Source of the DNA: Limosilactobacillus avistercoris
GTDB lineage: Bacteria; Bacillota; Bacilli; Lactobacillales; Lactobacillaceae
Direction of reading: 5' to 3'
Assembly: GCF_014836425.1 (NCBI RefSeq)
Contig: NZ_JACSQW010000021.1
Location: forward strand, 1 to 34,618
DNA length: 34,618 nt
Position 1 is the stretch's first letter; every line of letters begins with the position of its first letter. This document shows positions 17,822 through 24,010 of the stretch, piece after piece. The notes beneath the pieces are model-generated. The model was not told where the DNA came from, searched no databases, and was given only the letters and a program-made list of their open reading frames with translations. Made by a program: the position numbers and the translations under genes.

Positions 17822-18946
17822 TTAATCAATATAAATACGGTGAACCCGGTTGCTAATGTTCGTCATGATTTCGTAATTAATTGTTCCTGCCTGGTCAGCC
17901 AGATCATTGGCCGTTATTTCATTATTTCCCGAACGACCCAGCAAAACTACCTTTGTGCCTACAGGATAATGCTTAGGCAGCCGAACCATCATCTGATCCA
18001 TGCAGACCCGACCAGCAATATCACAAAATTCACCGTCAATTAAGACCTTGTATCCTGTCATGCACCGTGGATAACCATCAGCATAACCAATTGGCAAGGT
18101 CGCTAACCACTCATCTTCTTTTGCAGTGTAGGTTGCACCATAACTCACTGATTCACCTGCACGAAGTTTTTTTACAAAACTAATACTGGTAACTAATTGT
18201 TCTACCGGCTTCAAATCTAATGTTGCATTTAATTCTCGACCGGATGGGTTCTGCCCGTACATAGAAATGCCCATCCTTACGGTATTTGCCGTAATCTTAT
18301 CGCGGTGCCACATCCCGGTTGCGGAGTTAGCCATGTGAACAAATGGTGGTAATACATCTAAACTATTTACAAACTGTTCCCACTTATTAACCTGCTTATT
18401 AAAATAACCATTATCAGCGCTATCCGCCGTTGCAAAGTGAGTGAACATCCCTTCAAATTCGAATTCAGGATATTTACGAAGAACGGCAACCGCCTCATTA
18501 AAGTCATCGACAGTCGTAAAACCAATTCGGCCCATTCCAGAATCAATACCTAAGTGAACCTTCAGTGGTTTTGTCCAATGTTGGACTTGTGCCATCTGGT
18601 GGTATGCTTCAAGCCAATCCAAAGAACCAACCGTTAACGATACCCCAGCTTCCGCGGCAATGTGGGCATTTTCAACTGGCGCTATCCCAAGAACTAAGAT
18701 CATCGCCGTTATCCCGTTATCCCGTAGTTCAAGTGCTTCATCAAGGATCGCTACACAAGCACCAGTTGCACCAGCGGCAATTGCTGTCTTTGCTACCGGA
18801 ACAAGACCATTACCATAGGCATTTGCCTTCACAACCGCTAAAATCCTACTATCTGGAGCTAACAACTTTTTCTGCTCATTAATATTATGCTTAATTGCGC
18901 CTAAATCAACGATTAACTTTGTATCACGTAAACGTCCACTAATCAT
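17822..18946 (-). CDS. alr: Alanine racemase
   Basis: PLP enzyme interconverting L- and D-alanine; it supplies D-Ala for peptidoglycan and for teichoic acid D-alanylation. It has 374 aa. The PLP lysine is Lys40 in VVKANAYGNG; the second catalytic Tyr is in the SYGATY region near residue 268, followed by LPIGYADGYPR and the C-terminal VCMDQMMV. ATG at 18946 overlaps the acpS stop by 8 nt, with AAAGGAG-like bases in the acpS end, so acpS-alr is coupled. No terminator separates alr from the codBA promoter, so the codB leader terminator probably also ends alr transcripts. Confidence 0.97.
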   Translation of the reverse strand: MISGRLRDTKLIVDLGAIKHNINEQKKLLAPDSRILAVVKANAYGNGLVPVAKTAIAAGATGACVAILDEALELRDNGITAMILVLGIAPVENAHIAAEAGVSLTVGSLDWLEAYHQMAQVQHWTKPLKVHLGIDSGMGRIGFTTVDDFNEAVAVLRKYPEFEFEGMFTHFATADSADNGYFNKQVNKWEQFVNSLDVLPPFVHMANSATGMWHRDKITANTVRMGISMYGQNPSGRELNATLDLKPVEQLVTSISFVKKLRAGESVSYGATYTAKEDEWLATLPIGYADGYPRCMTGYKVLIDGEFCDIAGRVCMDQMMVRLPKHYPVGTKVVLLGRSGNNEITANDLADQAGTINYEIMTNISNRVHRIYID

Positions 18947-19301
18947 CTTTTTCCTCCAAAATAATCTCTGTCATGACATTTACTGCAGTATGACTGACCG
19001 AAGCATGCACCCTACCATTAAATGGGGAGTGAGTAACAATCGGTGCCCCCAACTGATTATCTACTATTTCAATATCTTGAAAACCGACCGCACTACCAAT
19101 TCCGGTCCCGTACGCCTTAGAAAAAGACTCTTTTAATGACCACCGACCGGCCAAGTATTCAACAGCCCGTTGACCACCCATTTTTTCATACTGTGACCTT
19201 TCCGTTGGTGTCAGTATTTTAAGGACAAATTGGGGGTGCTTTTGAATCATCTCTTGAATCCGTTCGATCTCAGTAATATCGATCCCAATTCCTTTAATCA
19301 C
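18939..19301 (-). CDS. acpS: Holo-[acyl-carrier-protein] synthase
   Basis: Transfers 4'-phosphopantetheine from CoA to a conserved Ser of carrier proteins: ACP, and possibly the DltC carrier encoded next door. About 120 aa. The metal-binding IGIDITEI is at the N-terminus and the signature WSLKESFSKAYGTGIG near residue 60. Start choice: an ATG at 19307 has AGAGG only 2 nt upstream, whereas GTG at 19301 has the same AGAGG at 8 nt and yields the family-like beginning MIKGIGIDI; I therefore prefer the GTG. It overlaps alr by 8 nt. Divergent from the dlt operon. Confidence 0.93.
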   Translation of the reverse strand: MIKGIGIDITEIERIQEMIQKHPQFVLKILTPTERSQYEKMGGQRAVEYLAGRWSLKESFSKAYGTGIGSAVGFQDIEIVDNQLGAPIVTHSPFNGRVHASVSHTAVNVMTEIILEEKDD

Positions 19302-19340
19302 TGTCATGACCTCTTATAACTTAAAAATTTCGTTTCTTAT

Positions 19341-19403: not shown

Positions 19404-19431
19404 TTGAACCTTAACGCAAATTATCTATAAT
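19404..19431 (+). promoter_or_regulatory. Promoter for the dlt operon
   Basis: -35 TTGAAC (19404-19409), 16-nt spacer, -10 TATAAT (19426-19431). Transcription would start near 19438, giving a leader of about 120 nt before dltX. It is back to back with the acpS-alr promoter. Confidence 0.6.
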
Positions 19432-19495
19432 AAATAGGTGTGAAAATTTAATTACGAATATCTTAAATTTTTGCATTAATAATTAACTAATTTAC

Positions 19496-19518
19496 CATAG
19501 CGAGCTAAAATCGCTATG
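19496..19518 (+). promoter_or_regulatory. Hairpin in the dlt leader
   Basis: Perfect 8-bp stem CATAGCGA/TCGCTATG with loop GCTAAAA, about 20 nt before the dltX ribosome binding site. A T-rich stretch (CTTTTTATAA, 19529-19538) follows 10 nt later, too far for a standard terminator. Function unknown; it could be an RNA stability element or a protein site. Confidence 0.4.
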
Positions 19519-19556
19519 TCACATTTGCTTTTTATAAGCGAAAGGAGCGATTCGTA

Positions 19557-19700
19557 ATCTTTAGTAAAAGTATTAAGAATCATCCTGCACTAACGTTCAT
19601 CTTAAAAACGGTATTCTACTTTATCGTTATTCTCCTATTAATCTACCTATATGGTTATTATGGAGCAGGTCAAGAACCGTTCATTTACAATGAATTCTAA
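19557..19700 (+). CDS. dltX: DltX, small D-alanylation protein, apparent ATC start
   Basis: 47-aa membrane protein, too short for many gene callers. One membrane segment (residues 14-31, about ILKTVFYFIVILLLIYLY) is followed by the diagnostic C-terminus ending FIYNEF, the conserved DltX motif needed for teichoic acid D-alanylation. It lies first in the operon, 16 nt before dltA. The frame has no ATG, GTG or TTG between the upstream stop (about 19505) and the membrane segment. AAAGGAG (19541-19547) sits 9 nt before ATC at 19557, whose product would begin [M]FSKSIKNHPAL. I therefore place the start at ATC. Identity is firm; the start is inference. Confidence 0.85.
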   Translation: MFSKSIKNHPALTFILKTVFYFIVILLLIYLYGYYGAGQEPFIYNEF

Positions 19701-19716
19701 TGTGGAGGAAATAGAA

Positions 19717-21243
19717 TTGAATACAAATATCGTTACTGCCTTTGACCAAGTCGCCAAGGATAATTCAACGCGGGTTGCTTATGATGAAATGGGAAAGCAA
19801 ACAAGCTATGGTGAGCTAAAAACTAATACTGATAGCTTAGCAGCTTGGCTTACTAAGCAAGACCTTACCCCAAAGAGTCCAGTCCTGGTTTTTGGTGATC
19901 ACCAAGTTGAAATGATCACTAGCTTCCTAGCTGCACTAAAGATGGGACACCCTTACATTCCCGTTTCAACTGATTCCGCCATTCCGCGGATCCAGTCAAT
20001 CTTAGATACGGCTAAGCCAGAATTAATTATCGCTGTTGATGATTTTCCAAGTGACAAGCTTAACTTCGATGCTCGAGTAGTTTCTAAAGAACAACTCGCC
20101 AGCGTATTAGCAGAAAAACAAGAATTTATTCCAAAGAATCCAGTTTCCGGAGATGAATTGGCTTATGTCCTCTTCACTTCAGGAACAACTGGCTCTCCTA
20201 AAGGAGTTGAAGTTAGCCATGATAATTTCAAGACCTTCGTTGACTGGGTTCTTGATACGGACTTTGATATTCCTGAACATGCTAACTTCCTTGGTCAACC
20301 ACCATACTCATTTGACTTATCTAATATGTACTGGTTGCCGGCCTTATTGAATGGTGGAACCATTAAGGCACTTCCGCACTCAGTAGTCGAAAACTTCGGG
20401 CAAATGTTTACCGCACTACCAAACTTAGATCTAAATGTCTTTGTTGGGACCCCTTCATTTGCGGATATGTTAATGTTGAGTCCTGCATTTAATGAAGATA
20501 AGATGCCAGACTTGAGTATTTTCATGTTCTGTGGTGAGGAGCTAACCGTTAAAACAGCCAAGGCACTTCAACAGCGGTTCCCTCACGCGCGGATTTTCAA
20601 TACTTATGGTCCAACCGAAACAACAGTAGCAATTTCTGGAATTGAAATCACACCAGAAATCGTTGCTAATAATGATCGACTTCCGGTTGGTTACGCTAAA
20701 CCAGGAGTATCACTTTCCATCTGGGACGGTGATAAGCAATTAACTGAACCAGGTCAAGAGGGAGAAATCATTATTAGCGGAAATAGCGTAGCCCGTGGTT
20801 ACATGAATAACCCCGAAAAAACTGCGAAGGCCTTCTTTAAGATTGATGGCGTTCCTGCTTACCGAACTGGGGATGCCGGAACACTTGATGCAGATGGTCT
20901 TCTTCACCACAAGGGGCGGATGGATTTTCAAATCAAGCTTCACGGATTCCGGGTTGAACTCGATGAAGTCCGGGCAAGTCTTGAGAAGAGTCCATTAATC
21001 AAGCAAGCTGTTGCTGCACCAAAATACAATAAGAATGGTCAAGTTGCCCACCTGATTGCTTACGTAATTCCTAAAGAAGAAGTTAAGGATCAGGAACAAC
21101 TAACCAAGGAAATTCGTGAAAGCCTTAAGGGATTGATCATGCCTTACATGATGCCAACCCAGTTTATTTACCGGGATTCATTCCCAATGTCTGCAAATGG
21201 CAAGATTGCAGTTAAACAATTAATTAAAGAGGCTAACCAATGA
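19717..21243 (+). CDS. dltA: D-alanine--D-alanyl carrier protein ligase
   Basis: Adenylates D-alanine and loads it on the phosphopantetheine of DltC; cytoplasmic. The ANL-family signature FTSGTTGSPKGVEVSH is present, with YGPTETTVAISG, YRTGDAG and the C-terminal catalytic Lys region SANGKIAVKQL. The start is TTG at 19717, with GGAGG 8 nt upstream, giving 508 aa, normal for DltA. A longer frame from ATG 19651 would overlap dltX and has no ribosome binding site. The stop overlaps the dltB start (ATGA). So the first two genes of this operon both use weak start codons. Confidence 0.96.
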   Translation: MNTNIVTAFDQVAKDNSTRVAYDEMGKQTSYGELKTNTDSLAAWLTKQDLTPKSPVLVFGDHQVEMITSFLAALKMGHPYIPVSTDSAIPRIQSILDTAKPELIIAVDDFPSDKLNFDARVVSKEQLASVLAEKQEFIPKNPVSGDELAYVLFTSGTTGSPKGVEVSHDNFKTFVDWVLDTDFDIPEHANFLGQPPYSFDLSNMYWLPALLNGGTIKALPHSVVENFGQMFTALPNLDLNVFVGTPSFADMLMLSPAFNEDKMPDLSIFMFCGEELTVKTAKALQQRFPHARIFNTYGPTETTVAISGIEITPEIVANNDRLPVGYAKPGVSLSIWDGDKQLTEPGQEGEIIISGNSVARGYMNNPEKTAKAFFKIDGVPAYRTGDAGTLDADGLLHHKGRMDFQIKLHGFRVELDEVRASLEKSPLIKQAVAAPKYNKNGQVAHLIAYVIPKEEVKDQEQLTKEIRESLKGLIMPYMMPTQFIYRDSFPMSANGKIAVKQLIKEANQ

Positions 21244-22454
21244 TTAATTGGCTTTCAAGTTTACCTAATTTCACTGCTTACGGGACACCTAACTACTTTA
21301 TTTACTTATTGCTTGCCTTGCTCCCGTTAGGCATTGGTCTTTATTTTGGCAAACGATTTCAGTGGTACGAAGCACTAATTAGTTTTATTTTTATCTTTCT
21401 GATGTTTGATGGAGCTAGTTGGCAACAATTATTCTCATTAATTGCGTACGTAATTTATCAAACATGTTTAGTGATGTACTACCATCATTACAGAAATACA
21501 AAGAATTCAGCAGGTGTCTTTTACCTGTTCTCATTTCTCTCCTTGATTCCAATTATTGTTGTTAAATTATCTCCAGCAATGGTTGGTCATAACTCACTTC
21601 TTGGTTTCCTTGGGATCAGTTACCTTACATTCAGGGCTGTCGGAACAATTATCGAAACCCGTGATGGAATGGTAAAGGAGATTACTCCTTGGCACTTTAT
21701 CCGCTTCATGCTCTTTATGCCAACAATTACTTCCGGACCAATTGATCGTTACCGGCGTTTTTCTAAGGACTATCAAAAAGTACCTGAACGCTCCGATTAC
21801 CTAAAACTAGTTGAAAAAGGTGTTTTTTACCTATTTCTTGGTTTTCTTTATAAGTTTGTAATTGCCTACTTCTTCGGTCAACGGTTCTACCCGCACTTTG
21901 AACAAGCAGCGATGAGCGATGGTTTCTTTTCCTGGAATATGCTTGGCGTTATGTACACTTACGGTTTCTACCTCTTCTTTGACTTTGCAGGATACTCCCT
22001 CTTTGCGGTTGCCATTAGTTACTTCATGGGCGTTAAGACGCCAATGAACTTTAAGCAACCATTTAAGTCGAAGAACATCAAGGAATTCTGGAACCGGTGG
22101 CACATTAGTTTATCATTCTGGTTCCGTGATTACATTTTTATGCGGTTTGTCTTTATGGCAACAAAGAAGCGCTGGTTCAAGAATCGAAATACATTGTCAG
22201 CTACCGCCTACATGCTTAACATGTTAACAATGGGGTTCTGGCACGGAATTACATGGTATTATATTCTATATGGCTTCCTTCACGGACTTGCCCTTGTCGT
22301 TAATGACTGGTGGTTACGTTATAAGCGAAAGCACCTGAAGAAGATGCCGCATAACAAGTTCACAGAATGTGTTGCCATTTTCGTAACATTTAACTTCGTA
22401 ATGTTTACGTTCTTACTTTTTAGTGGTTACCTTAATACTTACTTCTTTGGGTAA
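21240..22454 (+). CDS. dltB: D-alanyl transfer protein DltB (MBOAT)
   Basis: Polytopic membrane O-acyltransferase that receives D-Ala from DltC and passes it across the membrane for lipoteichoic and teichoic acid esterification. It has 404 aa and about 11 hydrophobic segments. The MBOAT core shows FWNRWHISLSFWFRDYIF and the active-site His in MGFWHGITWYYILYG near residue 335. The ATG overlaps the dltA stop by 4 nt, and the ribosome binding site lies in the end of dltA (AAAGAGG). The C-terminus ends LNTYFFG, typical of DltB. Confidence 0.97.
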   Translation: MINWLSSLPNFTAYGTPNYFIYLLLALLPLGIGLYFGKRFQWYEALISFIFIFLMFDGASWQQLFSLIAYVIYQTCLVMYYHHYRNTKNSAGVFYLFSFLSLIPIIVVKLSPAMVGHNSLLGFLGISYLTFRAVGTIIETRDGMVKEITPWHFIRFMLFMPTITSGPIDRYRRFSKDYQKVPERSDYLKLVEKGVFYLFLGFLYKFVIAYFFGQRFYPHFEQAAMSDGFFSWNMLGVMYTYGFYLFFDFAGYSLFAVAISYFMGVKTPMNFKQPFKSKNIKEFWNRWHISLSFWFRDYIFMRFVFMATKKRWFKNRNTLSATAYMLNMLTMGFWHGITWYYILYGFLHGLALVVNDWWLRYKRKHLKKMPHNKFTECVAIFVTFNFVMFTFLLFSGYLNTYFFG

Positions 22455-22482
22455 CCGACATTTATTTAGGAGGATTTTAACA

Positions 22483-22722
22483 ATGAAAGACGATATTATT
22501 AATATTTTAGCTGACGTAACTGGTCGAGACGCAAGTGACTTTAGTGACACTAGTGAAGATCTTTTTGCTGATGGATTATTAGACTCAATGGCTACAGTTA
22601 GTGTTCTCTTGGCACTTCAAGATCAATTTGGTATCCAAGTACCAGTTTCTGAATTTGACCGGAGCCAATGGAGTTCTGTTGATAAGATGGTTGATCGTGT
22701 AAAGGAGCTCCAAAATGACTAA
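22483..22722 (+). CDS. dltC: D-alanyl carrier protein
   Basis: Acyl-carrier-like protein of 79 aa. The phosphopantetheine attachment site is Ser35 in DGLLDSMATV. It shuttles D-Ala from DltA to DltB. The start is ATG 22483 with TAGGAGG about 9 nt upstream; a longer frame from 22423 overlaps dltB and would add 20 residues not found in the family. The stop overlaps dltD by 8 nt. Confidence 0.97.
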   Translation: MKDDIINILADVTGRDASDFSDTSEDLFADGLLDSMATVSVLLALQDQFGIQVPVSEFDRSQWSSVDKMVDRVKELQND

Positions 22723-24010
22723 CCGCAAGCGGCTGTGGTATATCTTTGGCCCAGTTATTCTTGCCTTTGTTCTAATTTTAATTCTTTTTACAATGCCACT
22801 TGGTAGCCATTATTCAGCTAAGACTGAACAACGTGCTGCTGCATCACTTAGTCCCGTAATTTTTAAAAATCAGAAGATTAAGCAACAAGCACTTTCCGAT
22901 AAAAATACTCGTTACGTTCCCTTCTTTGGTTCAAGTGAATTACGGCGCTTCGATAATTTTCACCCGTCCATTATGGCGGCACGTTATCATAATTACACCC
23001 CTTTCCTGCTAGGGCAACGTGGGGCACAATCACTCCCTCAATTCTTTAACATCACCACTATTGAAGGCCAATTAAAAGACAAAAAAGCTGTCTATATTAT
23101 TTCGCCTCAATGGTTTGTTAAAAAAGGGATTTTGCCTCCCGCTTTTAAATACTACAATGGCGAATTAGCCGATCTTACTTGGTTAAAAAAGGCTAATCCA
23201 AAATCACCCTATGATCGCTATGTTGCAAAGCGATTGCTTCAAATGATTGGTAATAATGGTACTGTAGCTGATAACGCTACTAAAATTGCCCAAGGGAAGC
23301 CATTAAGTGGTTGGAATAAAACAGTTCTTAACTTCCGCTTAACCTTACTCCAACACCAAGATGCATTATTCTCTGGTTTACAGTTGGATAATAACTATGA
23401 CCGTTTTGTTAAGCCAAAAGTAGATAAACTTCCGGCAAAATACAATGAAAAACAACTTCACAAGATGGCCATTGATAAGGCGGCTAAGGATACTGATAAT
23501 AACAGTTTCCACGTTAAGAATTCTTTCTATACAAAGAATGTTAAACCTCACTTGAAGAAATTAAAGAACTCACAGCGTCACTTTAACTACAACCAATCAC
23601 CTGAATATGGTGATTTACAAGTCGTGTTAAATCAATTTAAGAATAACAATACAAATGTAATGTTTGTTATTCCACCCGTTAACGGTCGTTGGGAAGCATA
23701 TACTGGCATGGACATGCAGATGTATTACCGCACTGTTAACAAAATTAAATTCCAACTTCAACAACAAGGTTTTAATAACATCCTGGATCTTTCCCACGAT
23801 GGGAATAAACCATATTTCATGGAAGATACTATTCATATTGGTTATGCTGGTTGGGTCAAATTCGATAGTGCAACAAGCAAGTTTATTGAACAACAGCAAC
23901 CACAACCACACTACCGGTTGAGTAACCAGTTCTTAACCCAGAAATGGGCTAACCTAATTCCAACTCAACAAAACCTTAATCAATTTAAGGTTCACGAATT
24001 AGATAAATAA
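22715..24010 (+). CDS. dltD: D-alanyl-lipoteichoic acid biosynthesis protein DltD
   Basis: Membrane-anchored SGNH-like protein, final D-alanyl transfer factor, 431 aa. One N-terminal membrane segment (about 9-28) precedes a catalytic domain outside the membrane. The nucleophile Ser is in FGSSELRRFDNFHPS near residue 71 and the Asp/His pair in DTIHIGYAGW near 375. The ATG is 8 nt inside dltC, with AAGGAG upstream. It is the last gene of the operon, followed at once by a strong terminator. The tail is Gln/His-rich. Confidence 0.96.
   Translation: MTNRKRLWYIFGPVILAFVLILILFTMPLGSHYSAKTEQRAAASLSPVIFKNQKIKQQALSDKNTRYVPFFGSSELRRFDNFHPSIMAARYHNYTPFLLGQRGAQSLPQFFNITTIEGQLKDKKAVYIISPQWFVKKGILPPAFKYYNGELADLTWLKKANPKSPYDRYVAKRLLQMIGNNGTVADNATKIAQGKPLSGWNKTVLNFRLTLLQHQDALFSGLQLDNNYDRFVKPKVDKLPAKYNEKQLHKMAIDKAAKDTDNNSFHVKNSFYTKNVKPHLKKLKNSQRHFNYNQSPEYGDLQVVLNQFKNNNTNVMFVIPPVNGRWEAYTGMDMQMYYRTVNKIKFQLQQQGFNNILDLSHDGNKPYFMEDTIHIGYAGWVKFDSATSKFIEQQQPQPHYRLSNQFLTQKWANLIPTQQNLNQFKVHELDK

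Follow-up and report, generated by a model that had tools for sequence, protein, structure and literature searches.

The window analysed here, a stretch of 34,618 nucleotides from Limosilactobacillus avistercoris, carries a dltXABCD operon on the forward strand whose dltX frame opens without ATG, GTG or TTG. The features of this locus are as follows.

19404..19431, + strand: candidate dltXABCD promoter, TTGAAC - 16 nt - TATAAT, with 10/12 consensus matches
19496..19518, + strand: predicted leader hairpin 1 (CAUAGCGA ... UCGCUAUG), from the 131-nt window fold
19524..19542, + strand: predicted leader hairpin 2, immediately upstream of the start-region hairpin, from the same fold
19540..19547, + strand: extended Shine-Dalgarno (SD) sequence GAAAGGAG, 8 bp to the 16S 3' end, duplex -12.1 kcal/mol
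19543..19586, + strand: predicted hairpin over most of the SD, the spacer and the AUC, its 3' arm being dltX codons 4-10; same fold at 14/14 ATC loci
19557..19559, + strand: proposed AUC start codon of dltX, ATC in 14/14 genomes
19557..19700, + strand: dltX, 47 codons plus TAA
19717..21243, + strand: dltA, with a TTG start
21240..24010, + strand: the dltB-dltC-dltD block
21240-22454, + strand: dltB
22483-22722, + strand: dltC
22715-24010, + strand: dltD

The 47-aa frame at 19557-19700 is the sole DltX match in the window genome, scoring 70.9 bits to Pfam DltX (PF12459; cut-off 25), which bears out the identification made in an earlier note on this DNA from its FIYNEF end. DltX is a very small membrane protein that cells require for adding D-alanine to their wall. 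This end, followed by TAA at 19698-19700, conforms to the FXYXXF acyl-shuttle motif with its tyrosine, as defined in the available text of PMC12148441, and is found in all 14 genomes described below in which the start position reads ATC. dltX lies directly upstream of dltA at 19717, then dltB, dltC and dltD, and dltA-D are present at 14/14 ATC loci. The dltA start codon is TTG in 13 of these and ATG in Candidatus L. intestinipullorum. The candidate promoter is weak on its own, since the region holds six promoter-like sites against a shuffle mean of 3.1. Genes for alanine racemase (alr) and an acpS-type phosphopantetheinyl transferase occupy 17825-19307 on the minus strand, divergent from dltXABCD, and could provide D-Ala and activate DltC. 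An Rfam search gave no match above the gathering score, the best being an S15 leader (18.1 bits against 39.5) at 19647-19755, outside the start region.

DltX was sought in 50 Limosilactobacillus genomes, sampled at one genome per species, of which 49 had a match. These yielded 50 loci, one of them an extra, frame-shifted copy and the other 49 intact. The start position of the intact loci is ATC in 11, ATG in 31 and GTG in 7, and the 11 ATC loci hold no canonical codon that would yield a 40-48 aa product. A scan of named GTDB contigs (35 loci) returned eight contigs already in the set and three further ATC genomes, giving n = 14: the window, L. vaginalis, L. fastidiosus, L. urinaemulieris, L. 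portuensis, Candidatus L. merdavium, isolate UW, L. viscerum, L. panis, isolate S11A, L. oris, Candidatus L. intestinipullorum, and genomes G030 and G028. The earlier note had named ATG at this same codon in relatives among the observations that would count against an ATC start; the alignment across the genus instead places the ATG and GTG starts one codon downstream of the ATC, in a different SD context. Outside the genus, 120 loci were read among 151 genomes with a match, and a canonical candidate start was present in 120/120, yielding 40-56 aa in 119 and, from one ATG, 60 aa; a crude SD scan found no SD for 40/120 of the canonical codons so chosen. The gene is the same across Lactobacillaceae, the first of dltXABCD, and the difference lies in the start, ATG or GTG in 38/49 genus loci and with a canonical candidate in every locus sampled outside the genus.

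Within the window, the ATC at 19557-19559 is preceded by the spacer CGATTCGTA at 19548-19556 and by the 8-base SD at 19540-19547, so that the clear SD 9 nt upstream reported in the earlier note was recovered. The same note had seen no ATG, GTG or TTG between the upstream in-frame stop and the membrane segment, and indeed there is none among the 16 sense codons from that stop to the ATC, nor in codons 2-20. The SD is identical in 14/14 ATC genomes (duplex -12.1 to -12.4 kcal/mol), with a spacing of 9 nt in 13 and of 8 nt in S11A, so that a near-cognate ATC under a strong SD at normal spacing is conserved between species in all 14. The 16S tail used for pairing, GGATCACCTCCTTTCT, was confirmed in 4/4 other Limosilactobacillus genomes tested and was not found in the window's own draft assembly. 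The open frame upstream of the ATC is free of canonical codons in 11/14 genomes; in the other three there is a TTG at -15 (urinaemulieris), an ATG at -13 and a TTG at -10 (merdavium), and a GTG at -3 that overlaps the SD (S11A). Each of these occurs in one genome only and none is common to all 14; downstream, canonical codons occur in viscerum (GTG, codon 19) and in S11A (TTG, codon 16). No conserved ATG, GTG or TTG able to serve as a start therefore exists across the 14 genomes, and the AUC is most likely the dltX start, as the earlier note had proposed from the arrangement of the sequence.

Initiation at another near-cognate or distant codon, namely the AUA, GUA or CUG just before the ATC, the AUU at codon 6 or a codon far upstream, has to be considered, given that AUA and AUU are near-cognate too, that the AUU at codon 6 is invariant, and that merdavium, urinaemulieris and S11A do have upstream canonical codons. 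However, this is highly unlikely: the codon preceding the ATC varies (ATA in 7, GTA in 6, CTG in 1), as do the next codons, the AUU at codon 6 lies 24 nt from the SD, and ATC is the only near-cognate codon common to all 14 at an SD-compatible distance. Furthermore, an in-frame TGA two codons before the ATC in 7/14 genomes leaves no canonical start before codon 19 there, and therefore no start further upstream can serve in those seven. The alternative that dltX is decaying or untranslated in the ATC species, with other proteins taking over its role, would accord with the missing canonical start and with the frame-shifted extra copy on L. panis NODE_344 (L077). It can be given hardly any weight: dltX is under purifying selection, with a mean dN of 0.064, a mean dS of 0.92 and a ratio of 0.07 in 84/91 pairs (the other seven having no usable dS), which argues against decay, and the FIYNEF end is invariant in 14/14 with an intact dltABCD downstream. 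A sequencing error or a mutation private to the window strain, both raised in the earlier note, is refuted, since 13 other genomes have the identical ATC, among them single-contig assemblies (G028) and named type strains. The SD-ATC arrangement is the same across a 4-fold tree length of 6.6, and the mutation is not recent, since the 14 genomes that share the ATC fall into two groups which are not a single clade.

These two groups, vaginalis and oris/panis, are separate on both dltABCD and rpoB. A clade of all ATC genomes was rejected on dltABCD (AU p 1.8e-57; 14 ATC and 13 other taxa, 27 in total, L065 being dropped for want of a dltC match) and on rpoB (AU p 1.65e-10; 10 ATC and 14 other taxa, with a match in 24/26 genomes), which rules out a single ATC origin without reversal. 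The ATC may have been gained twice, gained once and then reverted, or passed on through exchange of the start region. One plausible path is that an ancestral canonical start at codon 2 stood beside an in-frame ATC, was replaced by it and then disappeared; the ATC TTG that is still read in the frame-shifted L. panis copy can be noted alongside this path.

The constancy of the ATC was set against the variation of the operon. Measured at the 4-fold sites of dltA-D, the tree of the 14 ATC genomes is 6.6 substitutions per site long; of 43 conserved Ile codons in these genes, a single one reads ATC throughout the 14 and a single one ATT. The noncoding SD-ATC spacer has 6/9 invariant columns compared with 16/323 4-fold sites (binomial 1.1e-6). 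ATT at dltX codons 6 and 43 is also invariant, and of the codons invariant in amino acid, 10/27 in dltX after codon 10 are invariant in nucleotide as well, compared with 50/784 in dltA-D; the constancy of the ATC is locally less striking because synonymous conservation is this high along all of dltX. Codons 5-10 do not stand apart within the gene (4/6 against 10/27 after codon 10, Fisher p 0.36). By itself, the constancy of the ATC is suggestive of selection on the start codon and, given that the whole of dltX is unusually conserved at synonymous sites, falls short of proof. The spacer and start together (window 19548-19559) form a short palindrome, GATTCRTAATC, in 13/14 genomes, which could also be a DNA site. 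Coupling to an upstream ORF was considered as well, as a window ORF begins with ATG at 19516 and its TAA overlaps the ATC (TAATC); this was dropped because the leaders of two other loci (L005 and L008) have no ATG-started ORF in that frame.

Folding of the start region adds a feature beyond the earlier note, a predicted hairpin over the SD, spacer and AUC. In 67-nt folds around the start the same hairpin appears at 14/14 ATC loci (MFE -11.4 to -15.7 kcal/mol), and in the window it pairs AGGA, GAUUC, UAAU and CUUU with AAAG, AUUA, GAAUC and UCCU. The predicted probability that the AUC is unpaired is 0.02-0.07 in 13/14 and 0.36 in intestinipullorum. The hairpin is retained in the 131-nt folds made for five ATC loci; for the window (19490-19620) this fold has a z of -3.47, with 0/200 shuffles as stable. 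After duplicate start-region rows were collapsed (urinaemulieris and portuensis equal the window, G030 equals panis and G028 equals oris), 10 distinct sequences remained, in which variation is concentrated in loops and bulges: 7/10 unpaired columns vary compared with 5/34 paired (Fisher 0.0017), and the contrast holds for noncoding and third-position columns outside the SD, where 4/4 unpaired and 3/14 paired columns vary (0.011). Codons 6-9 of the 3' arm are nucleotide-invariant in 14/14, whereas variation is seen at the third base of codon 5, which is bulged. None of the 17 pairs changed on both sides among the 10 sequences, and little could covary since 13/17 pairs never vary; the helix is thus not backed by the compensatory changes that mark a structured SD-sequestering element. 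Against codon-resampled sequences the dltX start fold falls in the lowest 3.6-24%, which supports it weakly; the start regions of dltA in these genomes, by contrast, show no excess stability over their resampled counterparts. Among 25 other start regions in the window, four fold at least as stably and three bury the start as deeply. Weak folds (MFE -1.8 to -8.6) were obtained for the pontis ATG locus and for five GTG loci of the pontis/kribbianus type. Most loci of the reuteri group have start folds as strong (about -13) through other pairings, so that structure at the start is also seen outside the ATC species. An RNA thermometer was rejected on the model, the accessibility of the window SD being 0.22 at 20 C and 0.23 at 57 C, with small changes in three other loci. 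From these models we infer that the hairpin may form and matter.

Taken together, the likely reading is that the vaginalis and oris/panis groups possess a functional dltX whose AUC start and predicted burying hairpin would together hold DltX low. The initiator tRNA would read the AUC as formyl-methionine, and the 8-bp SD at normal spacing would make such initiation possible. AUC matches the initiator anticodon at two of its three bases, the third pairing poorly, and inefficient initiation is therefore to be expected. The predicted hairpin would bury the AUC and most of the SD. Given that the rare AUC start sits inside this predicted hairpin, DltX production in the ATC species may be held low, which supports, as a possibility, the limitation of synthesis suggested in the earlier note. 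The start and hairpin would keep the acyl shuttle low relative to DltA-D, which use ordinary start codons. IF3 selects against weak third-base pairing in a reconstituted system (PMC10158994), and a Bacillus subtilis rny-lacZ fusion with an AUC start mutant retains expression at much lower levels (PMC10303841). Staphylococcus aureus AUU and AUA starts with extended SDs give about 10% of AUG output in poor medium, and ccpN up to 30% in rich medium (PMC13009471). The C-terminal tyrosine of DltX receives D-Ala from DltC through DltB and hands it on to DltD (PMC12148441); in B. thuringiensis DltX is needed for D-alanylation, and changing the dltX ATG to TGA abolished complementation, reported as 'data not shown' (PMC5541007). 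Since DltX carries D-Ala and is needed for D-alanylation, low DltX could cap the modification.

It is possible that the AUC is the start and has no regulatory meaning, being a tolerated weak codon fixed by drift and rescued by the strong SD, with the hairpin following from conserved codons. The codon-resampling rank, the uniform synonymous constraint within dltX, the lack of covariation in the hairpin and the equally structured start regions elsewhere in the window all speak for this, as do the ATG and GTG species, which manage without an AUC start. Nevertheless, it is unlikely, given that the ATC is invariant in 14 genomes at a 4-fold tree length of 6.6 although ATG is one change away, and that the noncoding spacer is conserved. 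An AUC start that would lower DltX output is still the preferred reading, the effect on output being expected from the properties of the codon. A bolder possibility, itself rather doubtful, is that the AUC and its burying hairpin form one conserved translational valve that would cap the acyl-shuttle microprotein separately from DltABCD, with D-alanylation of teichoic acid then following either the capacity for initiation (IF3, free 30S) or some factor able to open the hairpin.

The nearest parallel within these genomes is infC, encoding IF3, with a near-cognate AUH start under a good SD: an apparent AUA start under GGAGG was found in 29/30 loci read (for example L051, about 1484) of the 46 genomes with a match. 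Because the infC product is itself the factor that tells near-cognate starts apart, a feedback loop is closed there. The codon in dltX is AUC and the gene belongs to the cell wall, so that any IF3 effect would be one-way. The S. aureus infC start is likewise AUA in the available text of PMC13009471. The view in the earlier note that ATC and ATT starts are known mainly from infC proved too narrow, as conserved non-canonical starts under extended SDs are described in the same text for cvfC1 (AUU) and ccpN (AUA) of S. aureus and relatives (PMC13009471). Like DltX, the cvfC1 product is a small protein and its gene is first in an operon (PMC13009471). These are other genes with other codons, supported by retapamulin ribosome profiling and reporters where dltX is supported by sequence, and the available text describes no start-region hairpin such as that predicted for dltX (PMC13009471). 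Escherichia coli pcnB (AUU) is similarly reported to have its expression limited by an inefficient start codon, and differs in gene, codon and lineage.

Naturally used bacterial AUC starts are hard to find: the accessible parts of the literature on AUC or ATC initiation codons concern mostly mitochondria or eukaryotes and contained no natural bacterial case, and those of the open-licence literature on dltX, dlt operon leaders and Limosilactobacillus non-canonical starts gave no report of an AUC start in dltX. A case spanning 14 genomes, in a covalent-carrier gene needed for D-alanylation, would offer a natural test of pathway tuning by start-codon choice. Gene finders restricted to ATG, GTG and TTG would miss or mis-start dltX in the ATC species.

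Two records of the survey deserve separate mention. Genome G034 (L009, L101), a single contig, has coding sequences chained without intergenic DNA at these places: alr, acpS, dltX and dltA abut on one strand and infC is cut to an internal ATG, the latter being the exception to AUA among the 30 infC loci. The record looks like an artificial concatenation and therefore gives false start contexts; L009 is counted among the 31 ATG loci, and its upstream context is not natural. In L. panis DSM 6035, dltX and dltA occur a second time on NODE_344 (L077 4942-6693; also L050), with about 78% identity to the L. panis operon; this locus is a remnant or a contaminating contig. Its frame-shifted dltX has the same SD and ATC with TTG as codon 2, and an opposite-strand ORF follows dltA.
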